Assembly (NCBI GenBank): GCA_963556695.1
Contig: CAUWAG010000007.1
Coordinates: 3,782,001 to 3,846,000 of the forward strand
Source of the DNA: Anthostomella pinea
Taxonomy: Eukaryota; Ascomycota; Sordariomycetes; Xylariales; Xylariaceae
Reading direction: 5' to 3'
Length of the DNA stretch: 64,000 bases
This document shows, one piece after another, positions 11,155-63,046 of this stretch. Both the position numbers and the translations under genes were made by a program. Under the pieces are notes generated by a model. It saw nothing but the letters and a program-made list of their open reading frames with translations, did not search any database and was not told the DNA's origin. Within the stretch, counting starts at the first letter, position 1, and each line of letters begins with the position of its first letter.

Positions 11155-14120
11155 ATGGCAGATGCAAACCTCATCGGGATCATCAAGGTCCCATTGTGTG
11201 CTTTCACCTACCAGACTGAAGTAGGTAGGGAAGAGTCTCCGATCATCGTGAAGAGACTAGCCAATGTATTTCGCAGGACACGTTGTAGGTCCAATCGATG
11301 GGAGAACCACGTGCAAGGACGTATCAACAGTAACACCTTAGAAGCAATACTGGCAGCTCTCGGCCGCACAGAAGAACAGCTCTATTCAACTGTATACGCG
11401 GGGGATTACCCTCAGGTCTACCTGAAGAGGCAAATCCTTTGCCTTGATGGAAGACATAGGCTGGCGGCAGCGAAGAGGGTTTTCGGTAACGGGGTATAGT
11501 GGCCGGTGAAGCTCTACACTACCCCGCCAGGTACGCACCATCGCGCCAGGGTGGATCAGAAGAGACTGACGCAGACAACAGGACCGTGTTTCCTTCACCA
11601 GACAACATACTCCGACGGGGAGATATACCGCGGGAAGAGGCTCTGTCAGCTGGCCAAGCAAGACCTCCTGGCTCGGGAATGGATAGTGCAACTATCATCG
11701 AGCAAGCAGCCGATTATTCGGCAGCTGTCCAGGAATATCGAGATTGTAGAAGCACTGGATAAACTCCTGCCGTACCCGGGGCTCTGGACGGGGCTGAGAA
11801 TTGGCAACCTGCATAAATACCTTGCACTGCACTGTGTCGAGCAGATTCTCAACTACCTCGGCCACATAGATCACGTCTGGTCGACAATAACGGTCGGCAT
11901 CATGCCGGAAACGGTTGACAACAGTTCGGTTGGCGTCCTGCAAGGCCGTGCCCCGTCCATCGCAGCAGACCGTATGTACATTGAGCATATGTTCAACCAG
12001 AATCAGATCTTCGTCCGCGTTACCGACCCTGCAACCCGCAGCCGGCTATTAGACCGAATCCTGTCGTTGGACAAGATGATACCCAGCATAGGGACATTTG
12101 AGAAAAGCATGAAGTATTTCGAGCTGGGTGCGAGAATTCTGAGGCGCGAGCTGTTGGGAGACCAAGAGAATGTCGACCCTACAGCCAATGTTCATCCGGG
12201 GACCAATGTGAACCCGGAGGCCGAGGAGCCCACGCTCCTCCAGAGACTCAAGTGGCAAAGTCCAATGAGCCCTACCGTCGAGGTGGCCGAGGGGGTCTTC
12301 GTGGAATCTACTGTCATGACTAAGGAGACAGCACTCAAAGCGCTCTTCCTATTCTCCCTGCGGCACTTCCCCTACTTAGGACCTGATCCGCCGCTCCAGG
12401 ATGTAAAGGGCGAAGGTATCGTAGCGGGCCTAAGCGACCTGCATTCGCTTCATCTCCGTGCCCGGGCCAGGGAATTTGGGTTCGTGTTGAGTATGCTCGA
12501 TCAGGAGCTGTGCCAATTAGATCCCCTTGTCGTAGACCCCATGAGCACAAAGCGACGGTCTATGCCTTGGAGAGGTGGCAAGCCCTTTGTCAGTACGTTC
12601 TTTGAGCTACGACCAGTCGCATTTCTTCCTACTCTAGACGCAGCCGATCCACGTGCCGGCGTTACCCCGGCGTTCGTATTAAAGCACTTCATGGATGCAT
12701 ATTTCGGCGCTTCTTCCTATGCGGTGGACGTGCCGTACTCTATGGACGAATCCGGTATGTCGTCACATAGTCTGCCAGTGCCTTCAGCGCAACCACCCTT
12801 CGGCTCCCCACGCTCGGGAGAAGGCACAGTCCATTTGCCACCGATTGGATCACAATTCAGTAACAAGCCAAAGGAGCACCGCGGGCGAGCCGTAGAGGGG
12901 GCTCAGAACGCCGGAGAACCGGCAGGGGATGATAGCAAGGAAATACCGATGAACGGCGAACTCTGGACGAGGTCCCCGAACGCGCCTACTTTACGAGAGT
13001 CCATGGACCAGTTCGACGTTCAGCTCCCTGATCGATCAGTTCAACGCTCCCCGATCTTCACCCCGGAACCTGAGGGCGAGACACAAGAAATTCTGGAAGC
13101 TATTGCAGGGCAGTCAAGCCTAGCTGGACATGCGAGCTCGACAGGCTTCCGTCCTGATGTGGCAATTGACGCCAGCGTATTCATGGCCCCTACGCATCTG
13201 GGCCCGAGGCCTAGGACCTATCTCAAGAAGGAGGATAGGAAGAAGGATAAGAAGGATAAGAAGGATAAGAAAGATAAGAAGAAGAGAGGATTGAATAGAA
13301 TCCGGAAGAAATCCCTCCGCGAGCCACTGGTTCGTCCTGGGCAGCAGTCAGAGATTGACGGTCCCAACTTCACGTTCCGGTCACGCAAGAGACGTGGGAA
13401 TACTCCGCCCATACCGGAAGGACCCAGTCACAGCCCAATCTTTCGCTTGTGGGATGCGCCACGGGAGCTCAAGAGAAAACATACTACTGCAATGGCCGAA
13501 GACCCCTGGGTAGACATACGGCCGGCAAAGGACCCCTCCCAGGGAAAGAGACCAAGATTGCATGGGCCCCATGGGAAGGCTGGGACCAAGCGGACGCTTT
13601 CTCAGACAGGGGATGGTTGGAAGTCTATCATACGGCGACAGAGCAGCAAAGGCAAAGGCAGGGAGAGCATGCCGAGACCGCGGCGGGACAGCGATAATGT
13701 TCCGGCAGATCCTCGGCGGGACGACCAATCTGTTGAGCGTGGAAGATCACCGCCGGAAGACACAAAATGTCACGAGGGTTCAGGCGCGATAGCAGGAAGC
13801 CAGACTCCATCTTCTACTACCCAGGTCTGATAGACCAGGATATGCCCTTGAAATGCAGAATATAGATGCTAACATGATGTTAGGGTGCCTCCGGCTCGCG
13901 ACTGTCTCGTGAGGGCGGTGCTTGGCCCCAACAAGCCAGAAGCAGTAAAGAGGTGAGAGAAACTTCGGGCCATACAGAGGAACATCCCAAGCGTGGAGCT
14001 TTTGCTCAAACGAAGGACGACTACCCTGTGGACGAAGACTGGTCTAGTGATACGGAGATTCCAGTCCCCACTAGGGAGAGGTCGGCACCGGCGTCTCCAG
14101 AAGATGACGGGATTTTATGA
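11155..14120 (+). pseudogene. GRHR-motif (DUF3723-like) protein gene with one in-frame TAG
   Basis: The ATG at 11155 lies in good context (CTCCATGG). The first 114 codons end in the motif LDGRHRLAAA, the signature of a fungus-specific family that I match to DUF3723. A TAG at 11497-11499 interrupts the frame. The same frame then continues without loss to 13824. From family memory, this position lies in a Trp-Trp motif before the conserved V.LY. TAG replaces what is most simply TGG, a TpG-to-TpA change of the RIP type. A 59-nt intron (13825-13883, branch GCTAAC, acceptor TTAG, but an unusual GTCTGA donor) adds a 78-codon acidic tail ending at 14120. The region at about 13225-13290 encodes a Lys-Asp repeat followed by a basic NLS-like stretch. 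Counting the TAG codon, the reading is 968 codons. Function is unknown; such genes recur in fungal giant transposons (Starships). A base-calling error is the alternative to loss of function. Confidence 0.75.
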
Positions 14121-37447: not shown

Positions 37448-38841
37448 ATGGCCCACGTACCTACGCTCGACCTTGTCTCTCAAAGTGATAACGAGGTTCG
37501 CGGAGACCCACATCTTAGCACCCTACTTGACGCATTCTGCTTGAAGAACGGGCTCGTCGTAATTGCTGGGTCAGGAATATCCACTTCAGCTGGAAGTACG
37601 TATTAATATCCTGCTGAATTGGAATACTAGTACTAAGACATGTTTTAGTCCCAACGTTTCGTACTAAGGATGGCCTGTTTGTCCAGCTGAAGCAGACATA
37701 CAGGCTGAAATGCTCTGGAGAAGACCTCTTTAGTGCCGATGTATTCAAATTCCCCGACAGAGCCGCAGCGTTTCTTGACATGATCCGACAATTATATGGC
37801 CAATGCAAAGAGGCTGAACCTACGCCCTTTCACTTGCTATTACAGTCAATAGCAAGAGAAGGAAGACTTCTACGGCTATATACGCAAAATATCGATGGCT
37901 TAGACACGCGGCTGAAGGAGCTCAGCACCACTGTCCCCTTGACAGCCACCAACAACGCATGGCCACTGACCATTCAGCTACATGGCAGTGTGGAGTTCAT
38001 GCAGTGCGAGAAGTGTACCAGTGTGGTCTCACTGTCCCCATGGGCCCATGGTGAAGATGATCTTCCAAATTGCACAGGTGATTGTGCACAGGATCGACGT
38101 CGACACGACATGCGGATACAACTACGGCCCGCCGTCCCTGGTCGCCTACGACCAAGAATATCGCTATACAACGAAGAGCCATATGACTCTCAAGCGATTA
38201 GCCGAGTCATCGACCATGACACGAATATCTTATCACCCGGTCCTGTGATCGTCGTTGGTACGACACTGAAAGTCCCTGGCGCTTGCCAACTTGTCCGCAA
38301 TCTCGCCAAGAAGGCCAAGGCAAACGGTTCACCCGTGATCTGGATCGCGCCCGATCGTCCGTCGAGTAATTTGAAGGGCCTATTCACGCTTATAGTCCTT
38401 GCGCAAGCAGACACGATTGCTGCAAAAGTCCTGGCCAGAACTGCTAAGACCGCATGGGATATACATAGTCTCCTCGATTGGCGTCAAAACCCAGACGACC
38501 TAGAAAGGATGCAGATACTTGTGCGATGGCCACCGGTTGGCGGAGAGGAATACGCACCGTCATATGCAGAAGAAGATGCCATACAGGAGGGCAGCCCGGA
38601 GCTCTTGTACCAGTTCTGGTCGGACAGGGGCGGACGCACCGAGGCCATTATACAAAAGTACCCCTCCCTCAACGGCCGCTTGATGTTCCACGTGTTCAAG
38701 ATACGAGATCAAATTCAATCTCGGTATCAAGTACAGTGGGTGGGATATAGTGATCAGGAAATGACATGGGAGAGCGCAGAGTACATGCACCAAGTTGCTC
38801 CTGAGTGTGTTCTGGCTTACCAAGAAAAGCGCAATATATAG
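37448..38841 (+). CDS. Sirtuin (Sir2-type deacylase) fused to C-terminal chromodomain-like modules
   Basis: Exon 1 is 37448-37595. The 53-nt intron has donor GTACGT and acceptor TTTTAG, and exon 2 is 37649-38841. The join keeps the frame (446 residues) and falls inside the NAD-binding motif. Sirtuin landmarks in order are AGSGISTSAGIPTFR (about 42-56), YTQNIDGL, QLHGS with the catalytic His, a zinc site CEKC...C...C, RPRISLYNE and VVGTTLKVPG. All catalytic residues I can check are present, so it should use NAD to deacylate lysines. From about residue 350, a shadow-like chromodomain segment (ILVRWPP...SPELLYQFW) is followed by a clearer chromodomain. The latter (about 396-442) reads FHVFKIRD...YQVQWVGYSDQEMTWES. 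Chromodomains bind methyl-lysine on histones, so a targeted histone deacylase is the inference. The gene is divergent from the PIDLT orphan. Confidence 0.85.
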
Positions 38842-39310: not shown

Positions 39311-41598
39311 CTACCCCATGTTAATCCATCTCGATACGTTCCTCGAAACAAGATGAAGCTCTTGCGTAAACAGGTTTTTGACTCCCTGACATTTCACCCC
39401 TCGTTTCCTTTTTCGTGTCTGCCTATTAAGACTAATAAGACCGAGCGGTTGACGGTTTGGGAGTTGTGCCCTCTCGAAATCGACGACCATAATGCATCCA
39501 CTTCGCTCGTCATATAACATATTCCGCAGTTCTGCATCGCAGTGAAGAACGCCCGACTTGTGTAGTGCAACGTAGGCTTGGGTAGCCGTCTGTAGGATAT
39601 CGGCTTTGCCGATCTGGTCGGTACACTCGAACAATGGCTGCCCAGCCCAGCTGAGAAACAGGAAGTGTCCAAACACACCACTGTCGTAATAGTACGGAAG
39701 AGCCAGGTTTATCATGCCGAGACATACAGGGACGTGCTTCCCCTGGATGGGCTTCAGTCGGTCATATACCCTGCCTTCATGCTGCAAACGTCCAAGGTCC
39801 AATGCTTCCATTCCCTTGGCGACGAGGGTGTAGCCGTGTGATGAAAGCCGCACCTTGAAGAGCGCGCCGAGCGATCCACCCAGATAGAGAGGCACGCAGT
39901 CTGCATCACGACCGCGGTCCTTGGCAAGTTGGTTGCGGATAAGGCCAAGAAATTCCAGCCGATCGATGTGTTTTCGCCCGTGGGAATGGTAATTAGGACA
40001 AGTGTCATCCACTGGCCCACCATACGCCAACCCCAAAAGGCACTGCTGAGTGCAGAATGGTCGATCTTGTATTTTCGGTTTCGTCACTTGGCCTTTCGAC
40101 TGTTGCCCTCGGCCTTGCTTCGTGCTAGGGGGCTGAGGTTCTGACGTGGCTGCATTCCTACCAGAACGCCTGGGTTGGTTCGGAGTGGGGGAATGGGCAC
40201 GCTTATCGTCGTCACTGCTGTCGTTATCGTCCTCGTTCCGAGGTCCAATGTCGCTACCTGGTTGCTTGCAGCCCGAGCGGGTCCTGATCGGCGACCTCTG
40301 GAAGCCCTTCCAACGCTGGGGCTTGTATGGGGTGCCGCGCTTCTCCTTACGTACCGTCACGGGGATATCCCTCAGCACGTCGTCATACTCGACGGCCCAA
40401 AGATCAAGGCCCGCGGCTGTGTCGTGCCAGGACGCTGGGGGCGGTTCCGCGCCGATGGCTTGTAATATGAAGGCAAAAACCTGGGCGACAGCCGTACGAT
40501 GCAACCTTGTCTCGTCGCCGTCCACAACGTCCAGGTCGGGTACGCATACCGAGTAGTAGACGATAGTGGGATCATCTGGAATAGAGAGGAAGATGAAAGC
40601 CTCTCCTGTACATACGTATCCGTACTGAATACCCTTGCCGATCATATACGAAAAGAGCTGGGTGACGACGGCAGCGACCAGTGTCCTCGACGCGAAAGCG
40701 AAGCCGTCACCATGTTTATGAATTGTATCCCGTTCGGGCTGGATCTCGGAATCTAGACCCGTAACTATCTCGTCCCGGGTGAGCTTGTGTGGGGGCTTGT
40801 ATTCGATGGCCACGGCGGGGACGTTTCGGCCCTGCGAGGTCCTGTATATGCAGAACTGGTCCGCCCGGTTACCCTTTCCTCTTGCCTTGTGTCGGGTGGT
40901 CTGCCTCGGGGCTGGTGCTACAGCGCCAGCGTGCCACTGCCAATAGACATGTGCTCCAAAGGTGCCGATATAGAGTCTTTTATATCGCCGAGGTTCGTGT
41001 GGCTCTCGAATGTGATGACTCCCTGTAAACCAAGACGGGATCGCAGTGCTTCGTCCTCATAGGCCCCTTCAACCAGCTTCCTTACAGCATTTTCGACAGT
41101 GTCGCGTTCAAAATCCCTCAGGCCCAGCTCACTACTAATGGGCCGAATCAAGGATGTGACGTATTCTAACTGCTTCGAGGATGGAAAGATGGGTTGCGTG
41201 GAGAACGAGGATCTGGTTGAGAGTTAATGCCAAACTCCTTCTTGTTCTGCTGCGAAGTTGTCCCATGGGACAATCCTCTTGGGATAGATTCGTCCTGTCG
41301 GATTAGTCGTCTCGCCTTGTGTAGTCGAGGAGCGGTTGATAACTGGCTGAATGGCAAGACTCAGCAAGTGGCAGGCCTCGAGGTATTGCTGAATTGTCTG
41401 TGGCAGTGGTTCCTTGGCGCGTTCTTCGGCACTTTCGCGACGCTTCTGCTCATCTTCACGCTGGCGCTGTTCAGTCAACAAGCGGTCTTCAGCATCCGCG
41501 CGTTGTCGGTCGGCCTCCTCGCGTTGTCGGTCGGCTTCCTTGCGTTGGCGTTGCTCATCCTGAAGTAGGCGTTGTAGCCTCAAGATCTCGTCGTCCAT
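39311..41598 (-). pseudogene. Broken fungal kinase-like gene
   Basis: Three blocks belong to one fungus-specific protein. Block 1 (41598-41227) is a Glu/Arg/Gln coiled coil ending IVPWDNF. A TAA (41224-41226) follows in the same frame. Block 2 (41223 to about 40915) carries RDFERDTVENAVRKL and VTFESHTNLG. A frame change by one or two bases near 40915 leads to block 3, which starts near 40890 (ADQFCIYRTSQGRNVPAVAIEYKPPHKL, shown here only as a marker split across residues) and ends at 39311. Block 3 has a protein-kinase-like fold with HCDAELRNMLY (catalytic-loop position) and VVDFERA (metal-binding Asp). The TAA would arise from CAA by a CpA-to-TpA change. No intron explains the frame change. 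It is probably inactive. Confidence 0.7.
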
Positions 41599-46805: not shown

Positions 46806-49800
46806 TCATGCCGTTTCCCCAGAAAATGCCGCGCATAGCTCATCCATAATGTGCAAAGCCCTGCCCTTGCTGAAGGCCGACCCTGACATAACTTCCAAAC
46901 TGAAGCTCTGCCGGTCTTGCAATGGTGTGCCGTAAAGCCACAAGAAAGCTGGATTCACCGGCAGATCCAAGTCGGGGTGGGCATCTAACACGCTTCCGGC
47001 CGCGGTGGGCATCCCTCGTAATGTGGGCCGGTCTCCGATGTTCTGGAACTGCGTGGTGCAGCCCGAGGTAGCCGAGGAGAGGGCGAAGTCAAAGCCCTGG
47101 AGGTTAGCGCTCACGGCTTCGTGCGGTAGCCCATCGATGTACTGGCGTTGGACGGCCGCAAGAACGTATGCCCGACTATCGCTGCTGTTGGCGGCGGCGG
47201 CGGCTACTCGGACAGGGACCGTATTGATACATGGGCCGATGACGTCCTGGAGCGAGGTAGACAGCGTCGAGCGCGTAGAGACCACGCGACCAAAGACTAC
47301 GTCGGAATCATGCTCAGACAAGCCAGAAGCTCTTGCCAGAGCAATTGCACAGGCAGCGGTGAATATTGTAGCTGGTGTGATTTCCGTAGTCACCCGAGGA
47401 GCGCGGACAATCCGCTCCAAAACAGCTGGGGGGCCATCGCACACAGTCTCGAGAGGCAGGTCGAACGCTGCCGTCGGGGCTGTGGTGCCATCCAAAAGGG
47501 CTCGCCAGTATTCTCGGGCCATGGTGTCGCCGGCCGCGACGTGGTCAATGTAGCCGGCGAAACTGGGGGGTGGTGGAAGTGCCTCGCCCCGGTAGAGGGC
47601 GCTCAGGTCACGAGCGATGTGACCGAGGCTGATCCCGTCGTACATGGTATGAGACATGCTTAGCACGAGGCGCACACCGACACCGGCTTTTCGGAGGACC
47701 TTGACTCGTAGGAAATGGGTTCCAAGTACTGCGGCAGTTCTGATCTCCTGCTCGCGGTCCACCTTGAAGATTTCTTGGATGTCTTCGGTCGAAACATCAT
47801 GTCGCTCCACTGAAAAAGGAAGGTCCTCGAAAACTGCTTGGTAAAAGCGACCATGCACAGAGACAAAGACCGATCGGAAGATGTCGTGCCTGTTGAGCAA
47901 CTGCGTACAGCTCTGCGCCAGCCGCTCCTCGTCTACTGTCGGCAAGAAGTCGATATAGAACTGATACCACGACCTCCGGGGCACGCGGAGCGCATCTTCG
48001 ATGTAGGCCTTCTGGGTTGTCGTCACCGGCCACACATTGGAAGGCTTAGCAGCCTGGCATTGCACACGCGGCAGGATTTCGCGCTTGACAAAGGTGCTGC
48101 CCTCTTCACCCAAGCCTAAGGCCGCAAAGGGCATGACAAGGTGTGGGATAGATCTGGGAGATACTGCAGTGGAAATACATTGGGCTGCGAGTCCCTCGAG
48201 GTTCGGCGTGGTAAGAACTTGGGAAACGGTTAGCGAGAGTGCTTCACTCCGCGCCATCGACACGAGTTGCATGGCTTTGATGGAATCGCCGCCAGCTCGG
48301 ATGAAATTATCGTCGATGCCGAGACTTTCGGGTTGGACATCAAGTAACCGCGCCACCAGGTCATGAATCTTGGCTTGCGCGGGTGTCTCTGGGGCGCGCC
48401 TCTGCATATGCTGCCTTCCAATATTCATATCCTGCCTCTTCATGGATGCGCCCTTCTTGCGCAGTGCTATGCGGTCTGTTTTCCCAGATGCAGTCATTGG
48501 AATACTGCCAACGGGGACATAGGCTGCTGGTATCATGTAAGACGGCAACGCCTGTGTAAGTCGGATGTTGGCCATCTCCGTCGCGTCTAGTAGCATTTCC
48601 GCCGGAACCGTGGGGCTGCTTTCGTCCTCGGTGAGACACAGGAAAGCCACAAGCATGGGGTCGCTTGTCCCTATCGGCGTAACCATCTCGGCGACGACCT
48701 GAGAAATGCCGGGCAGGGAAGCAAATGCAAGCCGGGTATGGTGTTCCACCTCCCCAAGCTCCAAGCGCTGTCCCCGTATCTTTATCTGAGCATCCTTGCG
48801 GCCCATGAAGGAGAGAGTACCATCGCTGTTGTACCGTCCGAGGTCTCCCGTGCGGTAAAATCTGCCTTGCCAGCCCGGGAAGCCAGACGCGCTGCCACGA
48901 AGAAGCCAAGGCGGATCATCGATAAAGGCCTGCGCTGTCTTGTCGACGTTGTTCAGATAGCCCTGTCCTACCAGCGGACCACCGAGCCACAGCTCCCCCA
49001 CGGCTCCGATGGCGGCCAGCCTGTGCTCCGTTCCACTCGTGTCCACAATCCACGTTTGTGCCCCTACTCCTCTCCCGATTGGTGGTTCACCGTCACTATG
49101 CGGCTCTACCGGTTGCACAGTTGCTACCGGCGTGCATTCTGCCGGACCATATGTGTTAATCACGCGGGCCTTGCCTTCCCAGTAGGCTGCATCGGCGGCG
49201 CTGAGTGGCTCGCCGATAAAGCTGACAGTCTTGAGATCGGGCAGATACGACCCCTGCAGCAGGCGAGCGACTGTCGGCGTCAGGTGTGCGTAGTTAACAT
49301 GCATCTGTACGATTGCCTGTGCCGGATCCTGCCGCCGCTGATGCTCGGACGGGATACAGAGGCACCCGCCAGCGCAGAGCGTCTGCAGTACGTTCGACCA
49401 CGAGACGTCAAAAGCGTAGGACACAAAGTCGTACACCCGAGAAGCACTGTTGAGCTCGAGTGAGTGTTGTTGATAACGCACGGCGCTCGCAAAGTTGGAA
49501 TGGCTGATTATTGCACCTTTCGGCGTACCAGTGCTGCCGGACGTGAACACGACGTATGCCGTAGATGACGGATTCACTGACGGCAAGTCCGCCTCGGCTG
49601 TCGAATGAAGAACCGCGAGCCCTTCGTCGACTACCATGACCGGCTGCGCCAGGTGCATAGCGTCGTGTTTGTTCCCAGCGGACGAGAGGATGATACGCTG
49701 CTCGGTTTGCTGAACAATTGATCCAAGGCGTGCCAGAGGCAAGGTTGCATCTAAAGCAACAGAGGCGGCACCTGCCTTCATCACACCCAGCTGTGCTACC

Positions 49801-52800
49801 GGCATCCACTTCGACTTCTCGAAGAAGAGTGGCACTATGGTACCGGCTACACCACCTCCCGATGTTTCGGCTGATAAAGAGCGTGCCAGCTGGGTCGAAA
49901 GGTCGTCGAGTTCCTGGTATGAAAATTCGCCGTCCCACGCGCAGACGGCTGGTACGCTGGGCTGCCTTCGTGCTACCTGTCCGAACAGGTCATGGACGCA
50001 GGTCTCAATGCTTTCCAGCGGTGGATTCCAACGGCAGATGTCTTGCAGGTCTTGGGCGCTGGCCGTGTGAACACTCGAGACAGGTTCACCCCTGCGACCC
50101 TCGGCGCATAGCTGGCGAAGAATTGTGGCTAGTTGCTGGCCCATCCGTTGGGCGGATATTTGGTCAACGACGTGGGAGTCGACACTGATACGGAGATGCA
50201 TGCCCCGCGCCCTGAGCTGGCACTCAAGCATCAAGGGGTACGTATTGAATGTGGCGAAGTCATCGTATTCGTCGCCCCCAGCATCGGGCCGTTGGAAGAG
50301 CAAATACTGCGAGTGGTCCCCCGCCCGAGACTCGGGCTGCACAACGAGCAGCGTCTGGAACTTGGATGCCTGTTCGCAATCAGGGTCCAACTGCTGGATG
50401 CGAGGCAGCCCCGCCTGCTCAAACGGCGTCATATCGATGCCTTGTGCCTGAACTCGTCGCAGAAGGTCCTCAATGCTTGTGTTCCGGTCTATCACGATCC
50501 GCAGCGGAACTGTCGCGATCGTGGGCCCAACGATCAATTCGATGCCCGGAACCGGCGCCTGGCGACCCGACACAGTCACGCCGAAGACAGCTTCGGCTGA
50601 GTTGGTATAAGCGGATAGAAGTATGGCCCAAGCTGCTCTGACCACCGTTGAAGCTGTGTAGTCGCCTGTCCACTCCAAGTCGTCAAGCTCAAGCTGCAGC
50701 ATCTGATCCGACCGCGGCTGGTAGCTGGGAGAGGGCGAAGTGAAAATAGGCTGGGCCTCGCTGCCCTGAAGCTGTCCACGCCAGAACGATTCTACGTCCT
50801 CATCAGGCTGCTGCCTTATGTATCGGACAAAAGTCTGCATCGGGGTGGAATCCGGTATGGGGTCGCCTTGATACGCCTTTCTCAGAGCCTCCTCGACGAG
50901 TGCCAAAGACCATCCATCGAAGAGCGCGTGGTGGATACTCCACACGAAGTAAGCCTGGTGTTCGTCGTTATGGTGGCTCTCTACGAATGCGAAGTGAACC
51001 AGCGGCGTGCCCGAAGCGACAGTGTCGTGCTCGAGTTCTCGCATCATGCTCGCTACATCGCTTTCGGAGCGCCATGCCACACCGTCCTGCTCGATGACAA
51101 CCTGGGCGAGTCCCATGCCCGGCAGGTGAGTAATGCGAGTACGTAATATGGGCGTCGCCGCCACAACTTGCTCCCAGGCCCGGCGGAACCTCTCTGGATT
51201 GACATTCCTGCCCAGCAAACGAGCCTGTCGGAGGACATAGTCGCCGGGGCGACGCATCGTCAGAGCAAGCAAACCCTCCTGGAGAGGCGTGCAGGGGAAG
51301 ACGTCCGCAATGTGGGCTTCGTCAACTCCACACAATGACGCCGCTTGTGCCCTTACCTCCTCAGTCTTCATACGCTCGTCCAACAAGGAGAAAGGCTGCA
51401 CGACGATCTGCTGGTGTGGCGGTGCCACCATGGGGGACCTTTTGTCGAGCTCATGCGCGAGATCGACCAGTACTGGCCACTTGAAGATGTCTGCTACCGA
51501 GAGGCTCAGGCCACGCTCACGTGCAGCGGCCACCAGCCTCATGGCATTGAGTGATTCGCCCCCCACGCGAAGGAAGTTGTCGTCCGGCGAGAGACGGGCG
51601 GCGTCCATCCCCAGCACGGTGGCCCACATCTCAAGCAGCAGCGCCTCGGTGGGCGAGGGTGCACGCCCATTGCGACATTTCCTCCCGGATGGCTGTAGTT
51701 CAGTGAGCTGATCAAGCGTGAGCGCTGCACCCATCGCTCGCAGCCGCCGACGGTCAGTCTTGCCTGTTGCGCCGACGGGCATGTGGTCGACGGGGATGCA
51801 AGCCGTGGGTATCATGTAGGCGGGCAGGGAGTCCTTCAACCGGTAATCGAGCCCTACTGTCATCTCCAACCCAGCGGCTCCGTCCTTCCGAGCGACACAT
51901 ACAAACGCAACAAGCATATCGTTGGTGCCGTCACGCGGACGGATCATGTCGACGAGCACCTGCACCTGGTGGCCGTGTTCCGCTGCCAGGCTGTCTCGGA
52001 CATGGGACTCGATCTCACCCAACTCGACCCGCTGGCCGCGGATCTTGATCTGGGAGTCCCTGCGGCCGATGAAAATCAGACGCCCACTGTCGCCACCGCG
52101 ACACTCGTATCGTACAAGATCGCCTGTGCGATACAAGCGGCCGCGTCGGCCTGGCCAGTCCGGCCCCCCACACAACAACCACCGCGGATCGTTCACAAAC
52201 GTTGCGGTCGTCTTTGCCTGATCGCCCAGGTATCCCATGCCGACAAGTGGCCCCTCCAGCCAAAGCTCGCCAACCACTCCCAACGGTGCGAGCCTGTCCG
52301 GATTGTCAAGGCTCACGACCCAGGTGATCAGACCTTCTCCGCAGCCGATGTCATTGTCCGACGACGACAAGTTGAACGGAGCCATAGTCGCTTTGACGGA
52401 GCATTCCGCAGGCCCATACGTATTCAAGAGCCCCGGGTGGTTCGCCCAGTCCCCGAGCGTAGACTTGGTGAAGGACTCCCCGCTCAATAGGATCTGGCGG
52501 AGTTGCGGCAGTTGCCGAGGCTTGAGCAGACGTAAGATCGATGGAGTGAGGTCTATGAACGTGGCCTGGCTAGCTTGTAGGGAGCCGATCATGTCATTCT
52601 TTCTCTCTTCGTCTGAAGGGATGCAAAGACAGGCCCCTGACGTAAGTGAATGGAGCATATTTGACCATGTTACGTCAAAGGCGTACGACACAAAGTCGTA
52701 CACTCGGAGACCTGGTGAATACCCCAATGCACCCTGCTGGTAGCGGACAGCCGAAGCAAAATTCGCGTGCGTGATCATGGCGCCTTTCGGCGAGCCGGTG

Positions 52801-55800
52801 CTGCCCGATGTGAAGACGACATACAGCAGGTCTGATGGCACCGATGTTCGGGGTGCGGACTGACCACGGACGTCATTCTGAATTCTGTCTAGAAGCGTCC
52901 AGTCCAGGAGAAGCAGCTCATCGGTATCAAGCAGGGACGCTGACTCTTTGTTCGACGGCGATGATATGACCAGCTTTGGCCGAACTTGATTCACAATCGC
53001 GCGAGCGCGTTCCACCGGCTGTGTCGAGTCGAGAAGCACCGATGCGCCCCCAGCCTTCATGACAGCCAGTTGGGCGACGGGCATCCAGAGTGACTTCTCA
53101 ATGTAGATGGGGATGATTGTGTTATGTCCCACCTCATGTTGAACAAGATAGAGGGCCAGTTGAGTGGAGAGGTCGTCAAGCATTCGGTACGTTAACTCGC
53201 CATCCCATGCAGAGATGGCAGGGGCCTCTGGCTGCGCCCGAACAGCCCTCGTGAATAGGTCGTGGACTAACGTAGTGGCGGGCTCGGGTACAGCGCAATT
53301 CCAGCCCCAGATTCTCCGCAGGTCCTGCTCGCTGACCGTTTCGACGTCACGAACCATGCGCTGCGAGTGGGCTGGAGCGCTCAACCATCTCAGCGCGCAT
53401 TCGAATTGTTGTAGCATCCTTGTGACGAGGTCGTTCTCGACAGCTTTGCAATCAAAGTCGGCACGAAGCCGTATATCGGAAAGGCCGACGAAGCATCGGA
53501 TCGTGAGCGCGAGCGGACGGGTGGGCAGGAGCAATTTCTCGACCCCCTCGATTTGTTGCTTGCCTACTACCTGCAAACCCCCTTCTTCGGTGCCTTCCGT
53601 TGCAGGAAGGATGATAGCAACAAGGGTCTGGAATTGACAAGCACGCGCAGCCTCCTCACTAAGCAACCGAACGCGCAGAAAGTTCAGGCTCCGGTGGCCG
53701 GGATGACCGGATTTATTTGTATCCAGGCGGTCGAGCAGGTCCGAGACTTTTACTTCGCGATTGAGCGTGACTCGGGTGGGTAACGACGTCGCGAGCTGCT
53801 GGGACGTTGGCTCCGAGTCGCAGCATAGAAGCCCGAAACACACGTCGTTGGAACTGTCATGGGCGGCTTGGACGCTCGCCCATGCGGCCTTGACTAGTGA
53901 CACAGCTGTAGAGGACTGGGGCCAGCTTATGTTGCAGATCACACACTCGACTGAGGCGTCAGCTCGAGGTTGGTGAGATCCCAGCGGCAGCGGAGGGAAC
54001 ATGGTCCCGTCGAAATGCTCGAATTGACTCCTCCAGTGTACTAACTCGGAGTCCTCCTCGCCACCGTGGGTGTTCCTGAAGTATGCATGGTAGAGCGAGG
54101 GGATGTGGCCGTTGGTGTATGGTGCTGGTGACCCTGCGCGGTCCAGGGTGCGAGAAAGCGTCCCGATGAGGTATGTCATGGCCGATCCCAAGCAGCCGGC
54201 AATGTTTTCAGCAAAGCCTGTACTCATGTAATCACCCCTGTACTGGACACTGATGTCCGTCTTGTCGTCCTCCAGCAACGCACTCAGGAGAAGGTCGTAC
54301 TGCGCATGTGTATGTTAGTTACGGCACGTGTATGAAGCGGACTGCACCGAAAATAGACATCGCGGCACATTCGCCAGGATCTGACTCCGACCGCCAGTCC
54401 GAGTATCTCGGCGTACAGCTGTCATTTTACTGGCGTTCAGACCATCGCCTCGCCTGCCTAGCTAATGTTGTGATTTACGGACGAGCAGAGTGCAACTTAC
54501 CTCGTGAGGATCTTCCTCTCTGACCTCCTCCAGACGCAGCCCGTGCTCGCAACCGTACTGATAAACCTCCCGCACCGTGATAGCGGTGTTGAACAGAGGA
54601 CCGCTGACGCCGATTGCGTGCTGGACTTCGGCAAGCGAGGTGTGTTGGTGGCCGAGGTGCTCGATCGTCTGCTCGCTGATTGCCTGTAGCACGTCCTCAG
54701 TGCGTGTTATGCCGAGGTTGATCCGTGCTACGAGCATACTGATGAGCGGGCCCACGATAGACTCGATGTTGTTGATAGGCGTGTCGCGTCCCGAGCAGAC
54801 GTACCCGAAACACACCTCCTCCATGCCCGTGAACTGCGAGAGCACCAGGGCCCAGGTGAGCTGCAGGAAAACGGCACGGGTTATGTCCTGCTCCCGACAA
54901 AAGGACGCGACCCTGGCGGTTGTGGCTTGGGGGAGAGTCACGAGGCCATATGACCTCCTGCCATCCGTCCGGGGGGCGTTAGTGATGGACAGGTCGCCGA
55001 GGAGCTCGCATCTCCGCGCGCCGGCCAGGTGGGCTTGCCAATAAGTCAGATGTCGCGACATGGACTCACTGTGCTGGATGTGGCTTACTACCTCTCTGAA
55101 CAGTGGCGGTTCTGGCACTGACTCTGCGCTTTGAGTGGCGTATATCTCGGCCAGGTCACGCAGCAATACGGGGATGGAGGAAGCATCAATCAAAGCGTGG
55201 CTCATGTCGAGGCGGCACGCGACATCGCCATCATCATCGCCTACGTCGCAGACAGTGATGGCGCATTCGGGTCCGCAAGCAGACGTCCCCAATGCCACAT
55301 CCATCTCTAGTAAATACTCCGTCGCCGACTGCGGTGCAGTGGTGCTGACACGGGTACAGCTAGGCTCTGGGTCGCGCAGAACGATTTGGATATCGCGTCC
55401 TGTGTCCGGGTGGGTGGCAAAGATGGTCGCAAAGACCGAGTGCCGGCGGGCGACGGCTTCCCACGCAGCCACTAACCTCGCGGCCGACATGCTTGTAGAG
55501 CGCTGGTTTGTCGAGGATGGCGCAGAGCTACACCGCCAGACCCAGCTGTTGTGGTATGAGGCAGTGCCTTTCTTTCTACTCAGCAGGATGCCCTCCTGCA
55601 AGGGAGTGCACGGGTAGATGTCCTGTACGTTTCCCGCCCCGACGCCGTACGTTTTCAACTGCTCTGTTAGCAGCGAGTCCAGTCCCGCGTAGGTGATGGA
55701 CAGCAGGGAAAAGTCAGCTAGGGTGAGGCGCGGTGGTGCCTCGAGGAGATCACGCGGCGCCGCGCGCAGCGCGGCAGGCAAGAGACGTAGTAGCCAATGC

Positions 55801-58800
55801 TCCAGGCGATCGCGGTGCCGCATGCGAAGATGTGTTGTCGTGGAGACACGCGCACGGCCATCCTCGATCACAATGTTGATCTCAATAAGAGCCATGCGCT
55901 GGTAATCGGCGCCGAATTCGCGAATGTCAACAGCGCGCTGCCGCCTGTCCTCCCGTCGCAAGAGAGCGTCGGCGTTCTCCAGCTGCTGGAACACGCCGCG
56001 GTAGTTGAGAAGGAGTTCTACATTGCGGTGGCCAGCGAATACCTCACGCCCGGCGGCGCTGTGATAGCGACAGGCAATATACGGCCGACCCTTTCCGGGT
56101 ACCGCGGCCCGGGTGTCTTTAGCGTGGCAAACGGCCTCGACGAGAGACTCGTTGGCGGCGCATGGCACCTGCATAGGACATAGAGTGGTAAACCAGCCCA
56201 CAGTCTCGGCCAATTCCACGTCGGCATTAATCAGCGGCTCGCGGCCGTGGCCTTCGAGGAAGACGGCGGGAACGGGGCGGTCCGCGAAGGCCTCACGGAA
56301 TGAGTGTACCAGGGCGCCAACCAGCACATCCAGAGTTTCGGTACGCATGCTCTCGTTGCTGCGGCCGAGCAGGAGAGCTGTGGACTCGGCGTCCAAAGTG
56401 GATTCGTAGATATCGCTGTCCGCAAAACGATTATCCCCTGCCTCGAGACCCCAAAAGTCCAGTTGCGCCGCTTCGACGGTGTGCGGCAGAACCTTTCCAG
56501 GCTCCAGCGTGTGGCCCTCATTGCGTTGCAGGCGACACCACGTTTGGTATGACAGGGGCGCCGGGGGCAGACGCGGCGAATCGGCCTCCTCCAGGAATCG
56601 GCTTATATCATGCCATATGACGCGCCACGATACCAGGTCGATGATGATGTGGTGCGCGCTGAGTAGCAGGCTCTGGTCTTCGTCCTGGCCGTTGAAGAGG
56701 TCCGCCGCGAATACAGGCCCTTTCTGGATGTCGAGCGAGGTCTGTCGGGCTTGCACTATCCGTTGAAGGTTGCCGCCAGAATGATACGGATGCTCATCGA
56801 GCGTAAAGGCGCTATGGTCGGATGCGACGACTTTCTGCTCCCAAGCCAGGCTGTCTTCGCGCCGCCGGAAGCGCACGCGTAACATGCTGTGGCGTTGCAC
56901 AACCGCTGCCAGTGCCGTTCGCAGTGCTTCCATTATCGTGGGCCGGGTTACGCGCAACAGGAAGCTCTGTGTGTAATGATTGAGGCCGTTTGGGTGTGCG
57001 TCGAAGAACAGCTGTTGCATTGGTGACAGTGGCCAGGCCAAGCCCTCGGCATCTTCTTCATGAGATACGGCTGCAATGGTTCGTACCACCGCCCTGCTTT
57101 GACTGGCGAGGGCTTTGATGGTGCGTAGTCGCAGTACATCGCCGACTGTGATGTTGATATTCTGTGCCCTACAACGAGAGACGACCTGCATAGCCGTGAT
57201 AGAGTCGCCGCCGAGGCGAGTGAACGCAGTGTCGGTCGATATCTTGTCGTCTGAGATATTGAGCACGTCGCTCCAGACCTGGAGCAAGATCTGCTCCGAC
57301 TCGGTTGCTGGCAGCATGCGTTCCTTCCCCTGGCTCAACCCTGCATACTTCCAGAACGCCGCCGAGGCTGCTTCGCGGAGACTGCGCCGGTCCGTCTTCC
57401 CGGTTGCAGTCGTGATAAAGCGCTCGATTGGAATATATGCCGAAGGAATCATGTAAGCTGGCACTACCTCCGTGAGCGCTTGCTCCCATGCAATAGCGGC
57501 CTTGCGAACGAGCTCCACCACGTTGAAAGAGGGTATACCATCGCGGGGACTGACCAGTGCAACCAAGACAGGGTGTATGCTGCCCTGCGGCAGGATGACT
57601 TCTGCGATGACGTGGGTTCTCCTCTGGTCCTCGAGAGACAAGCTGCCGCGCAGGTGGTGCTCAATCTCCGACAGCTCGACGCGCTGGCCGCGGATCTTGA
57701 CTTGGGTGTCTTTACGTCCAACAAAGGACAGAGAGCCATCGTGGCGATTGTAGCGTACGAGGTCACCGGTGCGATACAGACGGCCCTTCCGGCCTGGCTC
57801 GACTGAAGTATAGCCGCGGTGAAGCAACCACGGCGGGTTCTCGATGAATACCGCAGCTGTTTTCTTTTGGTCGTTGAGGTAACCATGTCCAACTAAGGGA
57901 CCTTCGATCCACAGCTCCCCGACTGCTCCGACCGGCATGAGTCGAGCTCCGTCCAGGCTGACAACCCAGGTACAGGTACCGAGACCGTGGCCGATCGGTG
58001 GGTTCTCCTCTGTGGATGACTCAACCTCTTGCATGGTGCTGGTAACCGAGCATTCAGCCGGCCCGTAGGTGTTGATGATAATGGCCCTCTCGCGCAACTC
58101 CTGGACAAGCGAACTCTTCAGCTCCTCGCCGCTAAAGTGTAGGACCTTGACGCTTTCTGGCAGATGCTCAGATGAAAACCAAGCCACCGAAGGTGTAAAG
58201 TGCGCGTAGTTGACCTTGTACTTCCGAAGTGCGCTGGGGATGTCTTGCTTCCGCTCTTCTTCTGACGGAATGCACAAACAACCACCGACTGTAATGGTGT
58301 GGAGGAAGTTGGACCAGGCAACATCGAACGCATAGGAGGCAAAATCGAAGACCCTTTGGCCTGGTCGGAATTTTAGGGCGTGTTGCTGATGTTCAATGGC
58401 GCTTGCAAAGTTGGAGTGGGTGATCATCGCACCCTTCGGAAGACCCGTACTACCCGAGGTGAATACGACGTAAAGTCTGGCCGAGGATGCGACGAGTGGT
58501 AGTTCCGGCGTGTCCTCACTGGTGGAAAGCTGAGCAAGCGCTGCCCAGCCCACCACTATGACCGGCTGCCTGGACAGGCCACGGGTGGCGGGCTCGTTCG
58601 CTACAGATGTCAGGATGAGTCGTGGATCAAGTTGATGGACGATCGACCGAAGCCGCTCTGCGGGCTGGGTCCTGTCCAGAACTACCGACGCTGCGCCTGC
58701 TTTCATCACCCCAAGCTGGGCGACGGGAGCCCACATAGATTTTTCAATGTGTACTGGTACAATCGTGTTCTGGACGCCATGCTCGACCAGTCGATACGCT

Positions 58801-59874
58801 AGCTGCGTTGAGAGCCTGTCCAGCTCGCGATACGTGAGCTCCCCGTCGTGGGCCGATATGGCAAGCGCATTGGCGTGGTTCGCACGATGCCAGCGAAGAG
58901 ATGATGGATGGGCGTGCCCGACTGACGTGGGACTGTCGAGTTCCATCTCCAGATATCGCAGAGGTCTTGCAGGTTCGCAAGCCGCAGTTCTGATGTGAGT
59001 CGGCCTTTTTCGGAGGCCGCAGTGTAAATACCGTGAAGAATGTACTCGTATTGTGAGCGCATGTGCTGAAACATCCCAACATCGACTGCGGCTGAATCGG
59101 TGAAGAAAGAAATCTGTACTTCGTGATGCAGGAGCGTGAGAGCCAGCACTGCATGGTAGTGCAACATTGTTGATTCCCCAGAGTTTTGCGGATCGACCAC
59201 TCCCGCTGCAAGGGTCAGTGACAGCATGAGCCCTACCCCGGCATGGCTAACGTATTGCAGGCATCCGGCAGTGTCAGCAGGGATTTGGGCTTGGACATTC
59301 TGTAAGAAACTGTGTACATCCGAGTTCCAATCCACGTTGATGCAGAACGCTACATCTGCTGCCGAAGATACAGGTGCTTCCGCAGCCCCCCCGCCATCCG
59401 GTACCACAGTGAAGAGCACGTTATTTGAACCAGGATAAGATGCCATGAAAATGGCCAAAGCAGCATAACTAGCCGTGGGCCCCGAGACCACAGCATTAGA
59501 TGCCAGTAAAGGAATCCTAAAGCTGAGGTGAGCCCCAGTCTCATGGCCGGGGCAAATCTCCAGAGAACCATTGGCCCTGTGATGATTCCCAGAGTGGCTG
59601 GCGTACGTGGAGCACGGGAAGCTTGAAAAAACACGAAAGGTTAGGATGTAATTGTATATTTCAGGTCCACTTTCAAATACCTGTTGGACGCTGGAACCTG
59701 ACCTGGTGCAAGTCCCAAGGGATCACTGCAGTGAGAAACGATCTTCTGGGCTGGCTTGGTCTGGACGTAAACCTTAGACTCGCCCATTCTGGAACCGTGA
59801 TGGGCCAGGGGAACCGCTTCGGCTTGCGAAAACAGCTTCAGGGAAACTCCCACCTCGCTGTTAGTGCTGGTCAT
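46806..59874 (-). CDS. Trimodular nonribosomal peptide synthetase (one apparent frameshift)
   Basis: Three exons: 59874-59681, 59621-54501 and 54299-46806. The introns are 57 nt (donor GTATTT, branch CCTAAC, acceptor TCAAG) and 201 nt (donor GTAAGT, branch ACTAAC, acceptor GCAG). About 4,269 residues. Domain order with landmark positions: C-terminal half of a C domain; A1 (FTSGSTGLPKG, ~58450); T1 (LGGDSI, ~57205); E1 (HHIIIDLVSW, ~56640); C2 (SHALIDASS, ~55190); a second half C domain (MFPPLPLGS, ~53990); A2 (FTSGSTGSPKG, ~52800); T2 (VGGESL, ~51555); C3 (HHALFDGWS, ~50920); A3 (FTSGSTGTPKG, ~49535); T3 (AGGDSI, ~48285); terminal C domain (SHTMYDGIS, ~47645), the type that releases cyclic products in fungi. 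The product should be built from three residues with the first epimerised to D. The frame slips by one missing base near 58880, between LFAGIVR and NHANALAIS, and no intron fits. Elsewhere the frame is clean over 12.8 kb. Confidence 0.9.
54300..54500 (-). other. Long (201 nt) intron in the synthetase gene
   Basis: GTAAGT donor, CGTAACTAACATAC branch region and TGCGCAG acceptor. The join is in phase 0 and restores a continuous C2 domain. It is about four times the usual intron length in this window. Confidence 0.8.
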
Positions 59875-61312: not shown

Positions 61313-63046
61313 ATGAGTAACGCAAAATCCAACAGTTTTCCGCAGGCCTCCTTGGGTGTTCCGGCTGCCTCTTTGGCTGACCCAGTGAATGTTCTCCCTA
61401 CCTCCATCTTGGATCATAATCCTCTTCCCGTGGTAGCTCTGGAACACGCTACCAGCGATTCTGACGATCCATCGCTCCCGCTCAACTGGAGCACGACTTG
61501 GAAATGGCTCGTTGTCGTCACCATTTCGGGTATGAGCTTCATTGTGTATGTTCCCCCCAACGATATTTCTTTCTTTGATTGTCTGGACCCAGGTAACTGA
61601 AACTGGCCGGTGTAACCAAACAGCAATCTTTCAACCGTCATTTGCGCACCTGCGAGTATCCAGATCTCCGAAGAGTTCAATTCCCACAGCAGCTTCCTCG
61701 CCATCTTCTACATTACGGTCTGGAACCTCGGAGAGGCCATTGCGCCCCTGTACATCGGCCCACTATCGGAGCGGATCGGGCGATTACCCGTTTACCATTT
61801 CTACAATGTTCTATTCATTATATTCACAGCTATCACCGGCTTCAGCACTAGTATTGGCATGATCATCGCCTTCCGGTTTCTGACCGGCACTGTTACCACT
61901 TCGATTTGCTTGAACCCTAGCATTGTGGGTGATATGTTTGCACTCCAGGGCCGTGGAGCTGCGATGTCTATTATGAGCCTGATGCCTCTTGTGGGCACCG
62001 CCGTTGGTCCTATCGCTGGTGGCTATGTCACGCAGCGTCTTAGTTGGCGCTGGACGTTTTGGCTCACCGGTATCCTCACCGGCGTCGTTGAGCTGGCCAT
62101 GCTTTTTGTCTTCCGGGAGACATACCTGCCGCGCATCCTTCGTCAACGGGAGAAAAAGACGAAGGTCCGTTCCAGGGCTGTGGCTGCGCCGGCGACAGCG
62201 GAAGCCAGAGTGCCTGTATATTTGCTGCCTTTGGCTGGACTACGCTTTGTCCTCCAGCCGTTTGTCATTCTCTTTGGATCTCGAGCCGCCACGGTCGTTG
62301 CGCTATACTTATCCATCATTTACTCGTATCTCTTTCTGCTTGCGGCAACGCTTGCCAGCGTTTTCCAAGAGATATATCTCTTCTCCGAAGCAGGCTCGGG
62401 TCTCATCTATCTAGGGCTAGGTTAGTCCCCTCTATCCTATCATCCTTCAGGCCTCTTGCTTCCGATGCTCCCCCCACCCACTTCACACAACTCTGGCTAA
62501 TACTGTATGCCCTGTACAGCCGTTGGCATGTTCATTGGAACGTTGTTCTGCCGCTTCACGCTAGATCGGTCCATCGTCGGCTCGGCAGATTCACAAGACC
62601 ACGGCAGTCACTCGTCGGCCACGGTCACAATTCAATCAGAGAAAAGACTGTTGCCGGCTATCCCAGGCATGGTGATTCTGCCCGCAGCGCTGTTCACGTA
62701 CGGCTGGACCCTAGACGCGCGGGTTCACTGGTCGGTACCGACCATGGCGACTGCGCTGGCAGGATTCTGCCTTTCAACGACTACCATTCCCGTCATGAAC
62801 TACCTCGTCGACATTTTTGGCGACCTTTCCGCATCGGCCATTGCTGCAGTGTTGCCGCTGCGCTACGTCATCGGTACTTTCCTACCTGTTGCTGCCCCTT
62901 ACATGTATGCCCGGCTTGGCTATGGTTGGGCCAACTCGCTGCTCGCTTTCGTTCTATTGTTGTGCTTGCCGGCCCCCCTGCTGCTCATCGTCTCGCTCAA
63001 GAAAAACTCTGCCCTAGCAAAACTTTCTCATCTGGTTGGGGGTTAA
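61313..63046 (+). CDS. MFS multidrug-type transporter (DHA1-like)
   Basis: Exons are 61313-61545, 61624-62420 and 62520-63046. The introns are 78 nt (donor GTATGT, acceptor AACAG) and 99 nt (donor GTTAGT, acceptor TACAG). The joined frame is 518 residues. After a polar N-terminus, NWSTTWKW leads into membrane helix 1. The loop motif GPLSERIGRLPVY matches MFS motif A. RFLTGTVTT lies in the next conserved helix, and GPIAGGYVTQRLSWRWTFWL matches the antiporter motif C region. Twelve hydrophobic helices can be counted in two halves with a basic central loop (about 290-310). Proton-driven efflux of small molecules at the plasma membrane is the family role. Facing the NRPS, it most likely exports its peptide. 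Confidence 0.85.

Follow-up and report, generated by a model that had tools for sequence, protein, structure and literature searches.

Methyl-lysine reading and acyl removal usually come together in complexes whose members are separate proteins. The deacetylase of one such complex, HCHC of Neurospora, is a non-sirtuin enzyme. Single chains that carry both a catalytic domain and a chromodomain are known from SUV39/Clr4, CDY and CMT3; these contain no sirtuin and are writers or crotonase-like folds, not deacylases. Here we describe a gene from a 64,000-nucleotide stretch of Anthostomella pinea DNA (contig CAUWAG010000007.1, positions 3,782,001 to 3,846,000; hereafter the window) that encodes, in one polypeptide, a sirtuin followed by a chromodomain-type C-terminus. 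The protein resembles SUV39/Clr4, CDY and CMT3 in its single catalytic-chromodomain chain and differs from them in enzyme class. HCHC (HP1, CDP-2, HDA-1 and CHAP), which likewise brings together a chromodomain reader and a deacetylase at chromatin marked by H3K9me3 (PMC13297926), can be regarded as the nearest functional parallel, although its subunits are separate and the likeness is one of function. We favour, at a probability of about one half, the reading that the gene joins a duplicated Hst4-type sirtuin to Xylariales-type tandem chromodomains in a protein that would be tethered to chromatin and whose catalysis would be weakened or altered.

The locus is one intact A. pinea gene encoding a real one-polypeptide sirtuin-chromodomain fusion. 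Its two exons, translated from the window, give a spliced product of 446 residues that begins with an ATG at 37448 and closes with a TAG stop ending at 38841. The features of the gene are as follows.

Exon 1: 37448..37595, forward strand; residues 1-49 and the first base of codon 50, with the N-terminal LDL motif and the GSGIS loop; aligned with exon 1 of the genome's own Hst4 gene.
Intron: 37596..37648, forward strand; 53 bases, GT-AG; place and phase (GGA A / gt..ag / TC CC) as in the ordinary Hst4 gene, L042.
Exon 2: 37649..38841, forward strand; remaining sirtuin, junction, both chromodomain modules and TAG stop; matches the deposited protein P0001.
SIR2 domain: 37568..38274, forward strand; residues 41-258, beginning in exon 1 and containing the intron; Pfam PF02146.
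Ser42 codon: 37571..37573, forward strand; GAGIS changed to GSGIS, where all 48 aligned relatives have Ala.
Thr52 codon: 37654..37656, forward strand; IPDFR changed to IPTFR, where all 48 aligned relatives have Asp.
Chromodomain module 1: 38452..38637, forward strand; residues about 318-379, aromatic cage incomplete.
Chromodomain module 2: 38683..38829, forward strand; residues about 395-443, cage positions F396, W413 and Y416.

The spliced translation is identical at 446 of 446 residues to P0001 (Uu.00g130350.m01), a deposited A. pinea protein; gene models for this genome were made by ab initio and homology-based methods (PMC10763133). The junction between the halves lies within exon 2, in a single open frame with no stop between them. 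When composition was preserved by mononucleotide shuffling, the 405-base chromodomain part was stop-free in 19 of 20,000 shuffles; for the exon-2 coding stretch (37651-38838) the count was 0 of 5,000. A Pfam search of the spliced protein returned both SIR2 (80.6 bits, residues 41-258, curated cut-off 24) and Chromo (31.0 bits, residues 406-443 in module 2, cut-off 25.1). The initial annotation, which had read a sirtuin and a chromodomain-type C-terminus in one frame with a clean intron and had allowed that a profile search might disown the C-terminus, is thus upheld by the gene model, the identity with P0001 and both domain matches. An artefact of the gene model is ruled out by the stop-free junction inside one exon, the identical deposited model and a decayed second copy with the same domain order (L041); that a second locus of this genome has the same build also rules out an accident of assembly. 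Since W319 and D320 of module 1 also align with the WD of the Hst4 tail, we place the junction at about that point.

Of the 7999 candidates scored against the full protein, 520 matched and 120 of these were listed. A search with residues 312-446 scored 25 candidates, and one for tandem chromodomains, confined to proteins of about 220-700 residues, scored 438; fusions that involve another class of sirtuin or are of another size could have escaped these searches. Apart from P0001, the matches listed from the full-protein search are 119 sirtuins, of which at least seven bear the name hst4; they align with 60-82% of the query at 36-45% identity. Precomputed Pfam annotation places a Chromo domain in none of these 119, which agrees with the earlier statement that fungal Sir2/Hst proteins normally lack chromodomains, and a sirtuin half in none of 57 tandem-chromodomain proteins (P0121-P0177). 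Within the reach of the searches made, no other deposited protein listed shows this fusion. The domains themselves are known; what is new is their combination, which does not amount to a new class. No sirtuin-chromodomain fusion was found in the titles and abstract openings of open-access literature, nor was any evident paper on, or established name for, the Xylariales tandem-chromodomain family, and these absences carry little weight.

With regard to the sirtuin half, the initial annotation held that all sirtuin landmarks were present. Every motif it named is there: GSGIS (residues 41-45), TQNIDGL (128-134), HG (161-162), the cysteines (169, 172, 191 and 195) and LYNE (222-225). Alignment with 48 of the 119 other listed sirtuins shows the catalytic H161, the residues Q129, N130 and D132, and all four cysteines to be conserved. 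The full-length structural model is mostly confident over the sirtuin part (10-residue means of 61-97 as far as residue 310). It resembles solved sirtuins, of which 1m2j is the best match (E 7.4e-16). NCBIfam returned for P0001 only general sirtuin models, far under their cut-offs. The claim fails at the cofactor loop, however, where neither GAGIS nor IPDFR is found: residue 42 is Ser and residue 52 is Thr, against Ala and Asp in all 48 aligned relatives. A pattern check of P0001 and the 119 fetched proteins found GSGIS or GGGIS, or an IPxFR lacking the Asp, in P0001 only. Homology is clear, so these departures lower the claim of ordinary enzyme activity and not that of descent. The protein agrees with fungal Hst4/HstD-type sirtuins, the class with H3K56 deacetylase activity, in motif order, in the four zinc cysteines and, for the genome's own Hst4, in the place and phase of the intron; it differs from them in carrying IPTFR, GSGIS and a Chromo domain where they have IPDFR and GAGIS and no Chromo. 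A metagenome protein of 390 residues, P0005, has the highest identity among the sirtuins listed (45%, or 43% in a second alignment). It has a late FTLxV...AD stretch in common with the window protein and carries GAGIS and IPDFR and no chromodomain; P0005 is possibly an intermediate relative.

The position of Thr52 corresponds to SIRT6 D63, which is flanked by PRO62 and PHE64 (PMC12686607). The substitution D63H abolished both deacetylase and demyristoylase activity (PMC10646311) and D63Y significantly reduced catalytic activity (PMC7051178); threonine is not among the substitutions described in the passages concerned. Because an otherwise invariant Asp is Thr52 here and the matching SIRT6 change to His abolishes deacetylation, ordinary deacetylase activity of the window protein is doubtful by analogy, and the earlier claim that the protein removes acyl groups is unsupported in the form in which it was made. 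The protein could still be a fully active deacylase that brings Hst4-like activity (on H3K56ac, perhaps H3K27ac or H3K9ac) to methylated nucleosomes and does the job of HCHC in one polypeptide. The conserved catalytic Asn, Asp and His and the four cysteines would suit such an enzyme, as would the rise in H3K56 and H3K27 acetylation upon loss of HstD (Hst4) in Aspergillus terreus (PMC10454297) and the coupling of HP1 with a histone deacetylase in Neurospora (PMC13297926). Yet both D52T and A42S fall at sites invariant in the 48 aligned relatives, and the SIRT6 D63 mutants, none of them the Thr substitution, lose activity; full activity is in our view rather unlikely. The decayed copy L041 likewise reads PTFR, so the Asp was probably lost long ago. 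A further possibility is a pseudo-sirtuin adaptor in which the NAD (nicotinamide adenine dinucleotide) fold was retained, the IPDFR Asp was lost early and a methyl-lysine reader was fused; such a protein would act as an NAD sensor, or as a rival of the resident Hst4, on the methylated chromatin of a repeat-rich accessory region, and would perform no deacetylation. We consider this unlikely.

The C-terminus had been described as chromodomain modules, in the plural, that read methyl-lysine. The plural is borne out by the structural model of the C-terminus (mean predicted local distance difference test score 84.3), which contains two chromodomain-like units of three strands plus helices, with a three-stranded sheet packed on a C-terminal helix. 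The top Foldseek rows for this model were the tandem chromodomains of CHD5 and CHD1 (E 5.9e-3, with template-modelling scores of only 0.25-0.35), and Foldseek returned nothing for it at E <=0.001. The VQWVGY and TWES landmarks are present. Module 2 has an aromatic residue at all three cage positions (F396, W413 and Y416), as placed by sequence alignment only; we take these positions to be equivalent to HP1 Y24, W45 and Y48. The same positions carry Y/F, W and H/Y in 39 related rows. Module 1 has no Pfam match on its own and its cage is incomplete, the third aromatic being absent. A reader function is plausible for module 2 and would probably not extend to module 1. Alternatively, the modules might be protein-binding or dimerisation units resembling the HP1 chromoshadow domain and not methyl-lysine readers. 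The three cage aromatics and the TWE of module 2 argue against this, as do its best sequence matches, which are chromodomains (CBX7, E 0.007, and Pfam Chromo), and we hold it to be very unlikely.

Outside the fusion, P0121 matches residues 312-446 with an E value of 1.6e-7 over 93%; the pair is homologous throughout, with the modules about 80 residues apart. The chromodomain pair is related to the stand-alone Xylariales tandem-chromodomain family (P0121-P0177). The family and the window protein have in common the module order, the spacing, the Y/F-W-H/Y cage of module 2 and a degenerate module 1. They differ in that P0121 has an N-terminal region without a Pfam match where the window protein has its sirtuin, and in a C-terminal GGR and basic tail that the window protein lacks; identity is 28-36%.

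Other copies in the genome bear on the history of the gene. L042 is the ordinary Hst4 gene; as its intron has the same place and phase as that of the window gene, the simplest account is that the sirtuin half derives from a spliced gene of Hst4 type. It appears to be a duplicated, fast-diverged Hst4-type paralogue in which the chromodomain module replaced the Hst4 tail. In trees, the window sirtuin sits on a long branch and is separated from the two other genome sirtuins at 100/100; it groups with Xylariales at 57/41 without L041 and with non-Xylariales rows when L041 is included, and its placement among Hst4 rows is unsure. L041 is a decayed sister copy (38% identity over residues 45-401) that comprises a sirtuin, module 1 and the beginning of module 2. 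It has a TAG at the sirtuin-chromodomain junction, reads HR in place of HG and breaks off early in module 2. L045 retains both modules and has 343 bases at 88.9% in common with L041, including a remnant of the sirtuin tail. Since the modules of the window gene, L041 and L045 form one group at 100/99, the fusion architecture would most simply predate the split of the window gene from L041. L045 was also considered as a kinase-chromodomain fusion and rejected: its APH-like frame stops shortly before the chromodomain segment, which is L041-like and carries the sirtuin tail remnant. A 562-base fragment (L040/L054) is 94% identical to window positions 37806-38367 and carries an insertion of 1 base and a deletion of 13 bases; at L054:4714-5263 (C7:3636713-3637262) it is frameshifted and its flanks are unmatched to the window. 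The L040/L054 and L041/L045 pieces are short gene-fragment duplications.

The genome also holds at least five stand-alone tandem-chromodomain genes (L048-L051 and L053, at C5:196k and C9:0.75-0.96 Mb), a local expansion of chromatin-reader genes in which the regions of L050 and L051 share 95% identity across 1.08 kb and L049 adjoins a frame resembling, by eye only, a Tc1-type transposase. Grouping of the fusion modules with the core Xylariaceae-like set (22 rows against 5) was not rejected in the approximately unbiased (AU) test (p-AU 0.142), and a clade restricted to the fusion modules and the stand-alone copies of this genome was weakly rejected (p-AU 0.026); where the fusion arose is unsure. 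A horizontal origin is not supported, as the long window branch moves with the inclusion of L041 and placement with the core set is not rejected.

Several of these observations would suit a decaying, lineage-specific product of duplication and shuffling whose frame is open and has no function: the two broken relatives (L040/L054 and L041) and the chromodomain fragment L045, the loss of invariant residues, the long branches, and the setting, in which a DUF3723 gene occurs and DUF3435 copies lie close by. Against decay, all 446 codons are stop-free, the splice sites are intact, and the zinc cysteines and catalytic residues are conserved. Both halves have their lowest GC content at the second codon position, a pattern that three control frames from the window also show. 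Moreover, the window gene differs from the L054 fragment by fewer nonsynonymous changes than neutrality predicts: 8 of 19 coding differences, against the 70% expected when transitions are given a weight of 4 (P = 0.010), in a test that covers 19 sites in part of the sirtuin half only. The deficit favours a gene maintained under constraint, and functionless decay seems to us quite improbable. Recent decay of the region by repeat-induced point mutation (RIP) was considered and rejected, the RIP indices of 16 bins being unremarkable (composite -0.20 to -0.70; gene -0.43).

The surroundings include a DUF3723 gene at window positions 11500-13827 on the forward strand (190.6 bits), with a genome-wide match at C5:3793284-3794492 that has one internal TAG. 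The 16 DUF3723 matches in the genome comprise 14 on C9:0.5-1.4 Mb and 2 on the window's part of C5. DUF3435 matches number 61, some of them near the window at C5:3699k and 3889k. Both families have been linked with Starship giant transposons, and an accessory mobile region around the gene is possible. Downstream, a 581-residue frame on the reverse strand (39314-41056) has a weak kinase-like C-terminus (APH 19.2 and Pkinase 16.4 bits, both below cut-off). A 2502-residue nonribosomal peptide synthetase frame follows on the reverse strand (46809-54314), with two AMP-binding, two condensation and two carrier stretches, then a further long frame (54465-59246, reverse strand) and a major facilitator superfamily (MFS) transporter frame (61616-62422, forward strand). 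The synthetase and its neighbouring frames possibly form a biosynthetic cluster.

In the reading we favour, a duplicated sirtuin tethered to chromatin with weakened or altered catalysis, module 2 would dock the protein through F396, W413 and Y416 on H3K9me3, H3K27me3 or a similar methyl-lysine mark; module 1 would support the fold or make contacts without reading methyl-lysine. The sirtuin domain thus brought to methylated chromatin would probably still bind NAD, because the fold, N130, D132, H161 and the zinc cysteines are conserved, and its deacetylation would be weak or altered because the invariant IPDFR Asp is Thr52. At such chromatin the protein may then assist silencing in a manner that responds to NAD, or may compete with ordinary Hst4. 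Hst4-type enzymes target H3K56ac, and H3K27ac as well in A. terreus (PMC10454297), which makes competition with the resident Hst4 a concrete possibility. A single chain of sirtuin and chromodomain would be a natural minimal version of methyl-lysine reading coupled to acyl removal and, with the invariant Asp lost, may offer a natural experiment on whether the sirtuin fold has a use at chromatin when it lacks ordinary catalysis.
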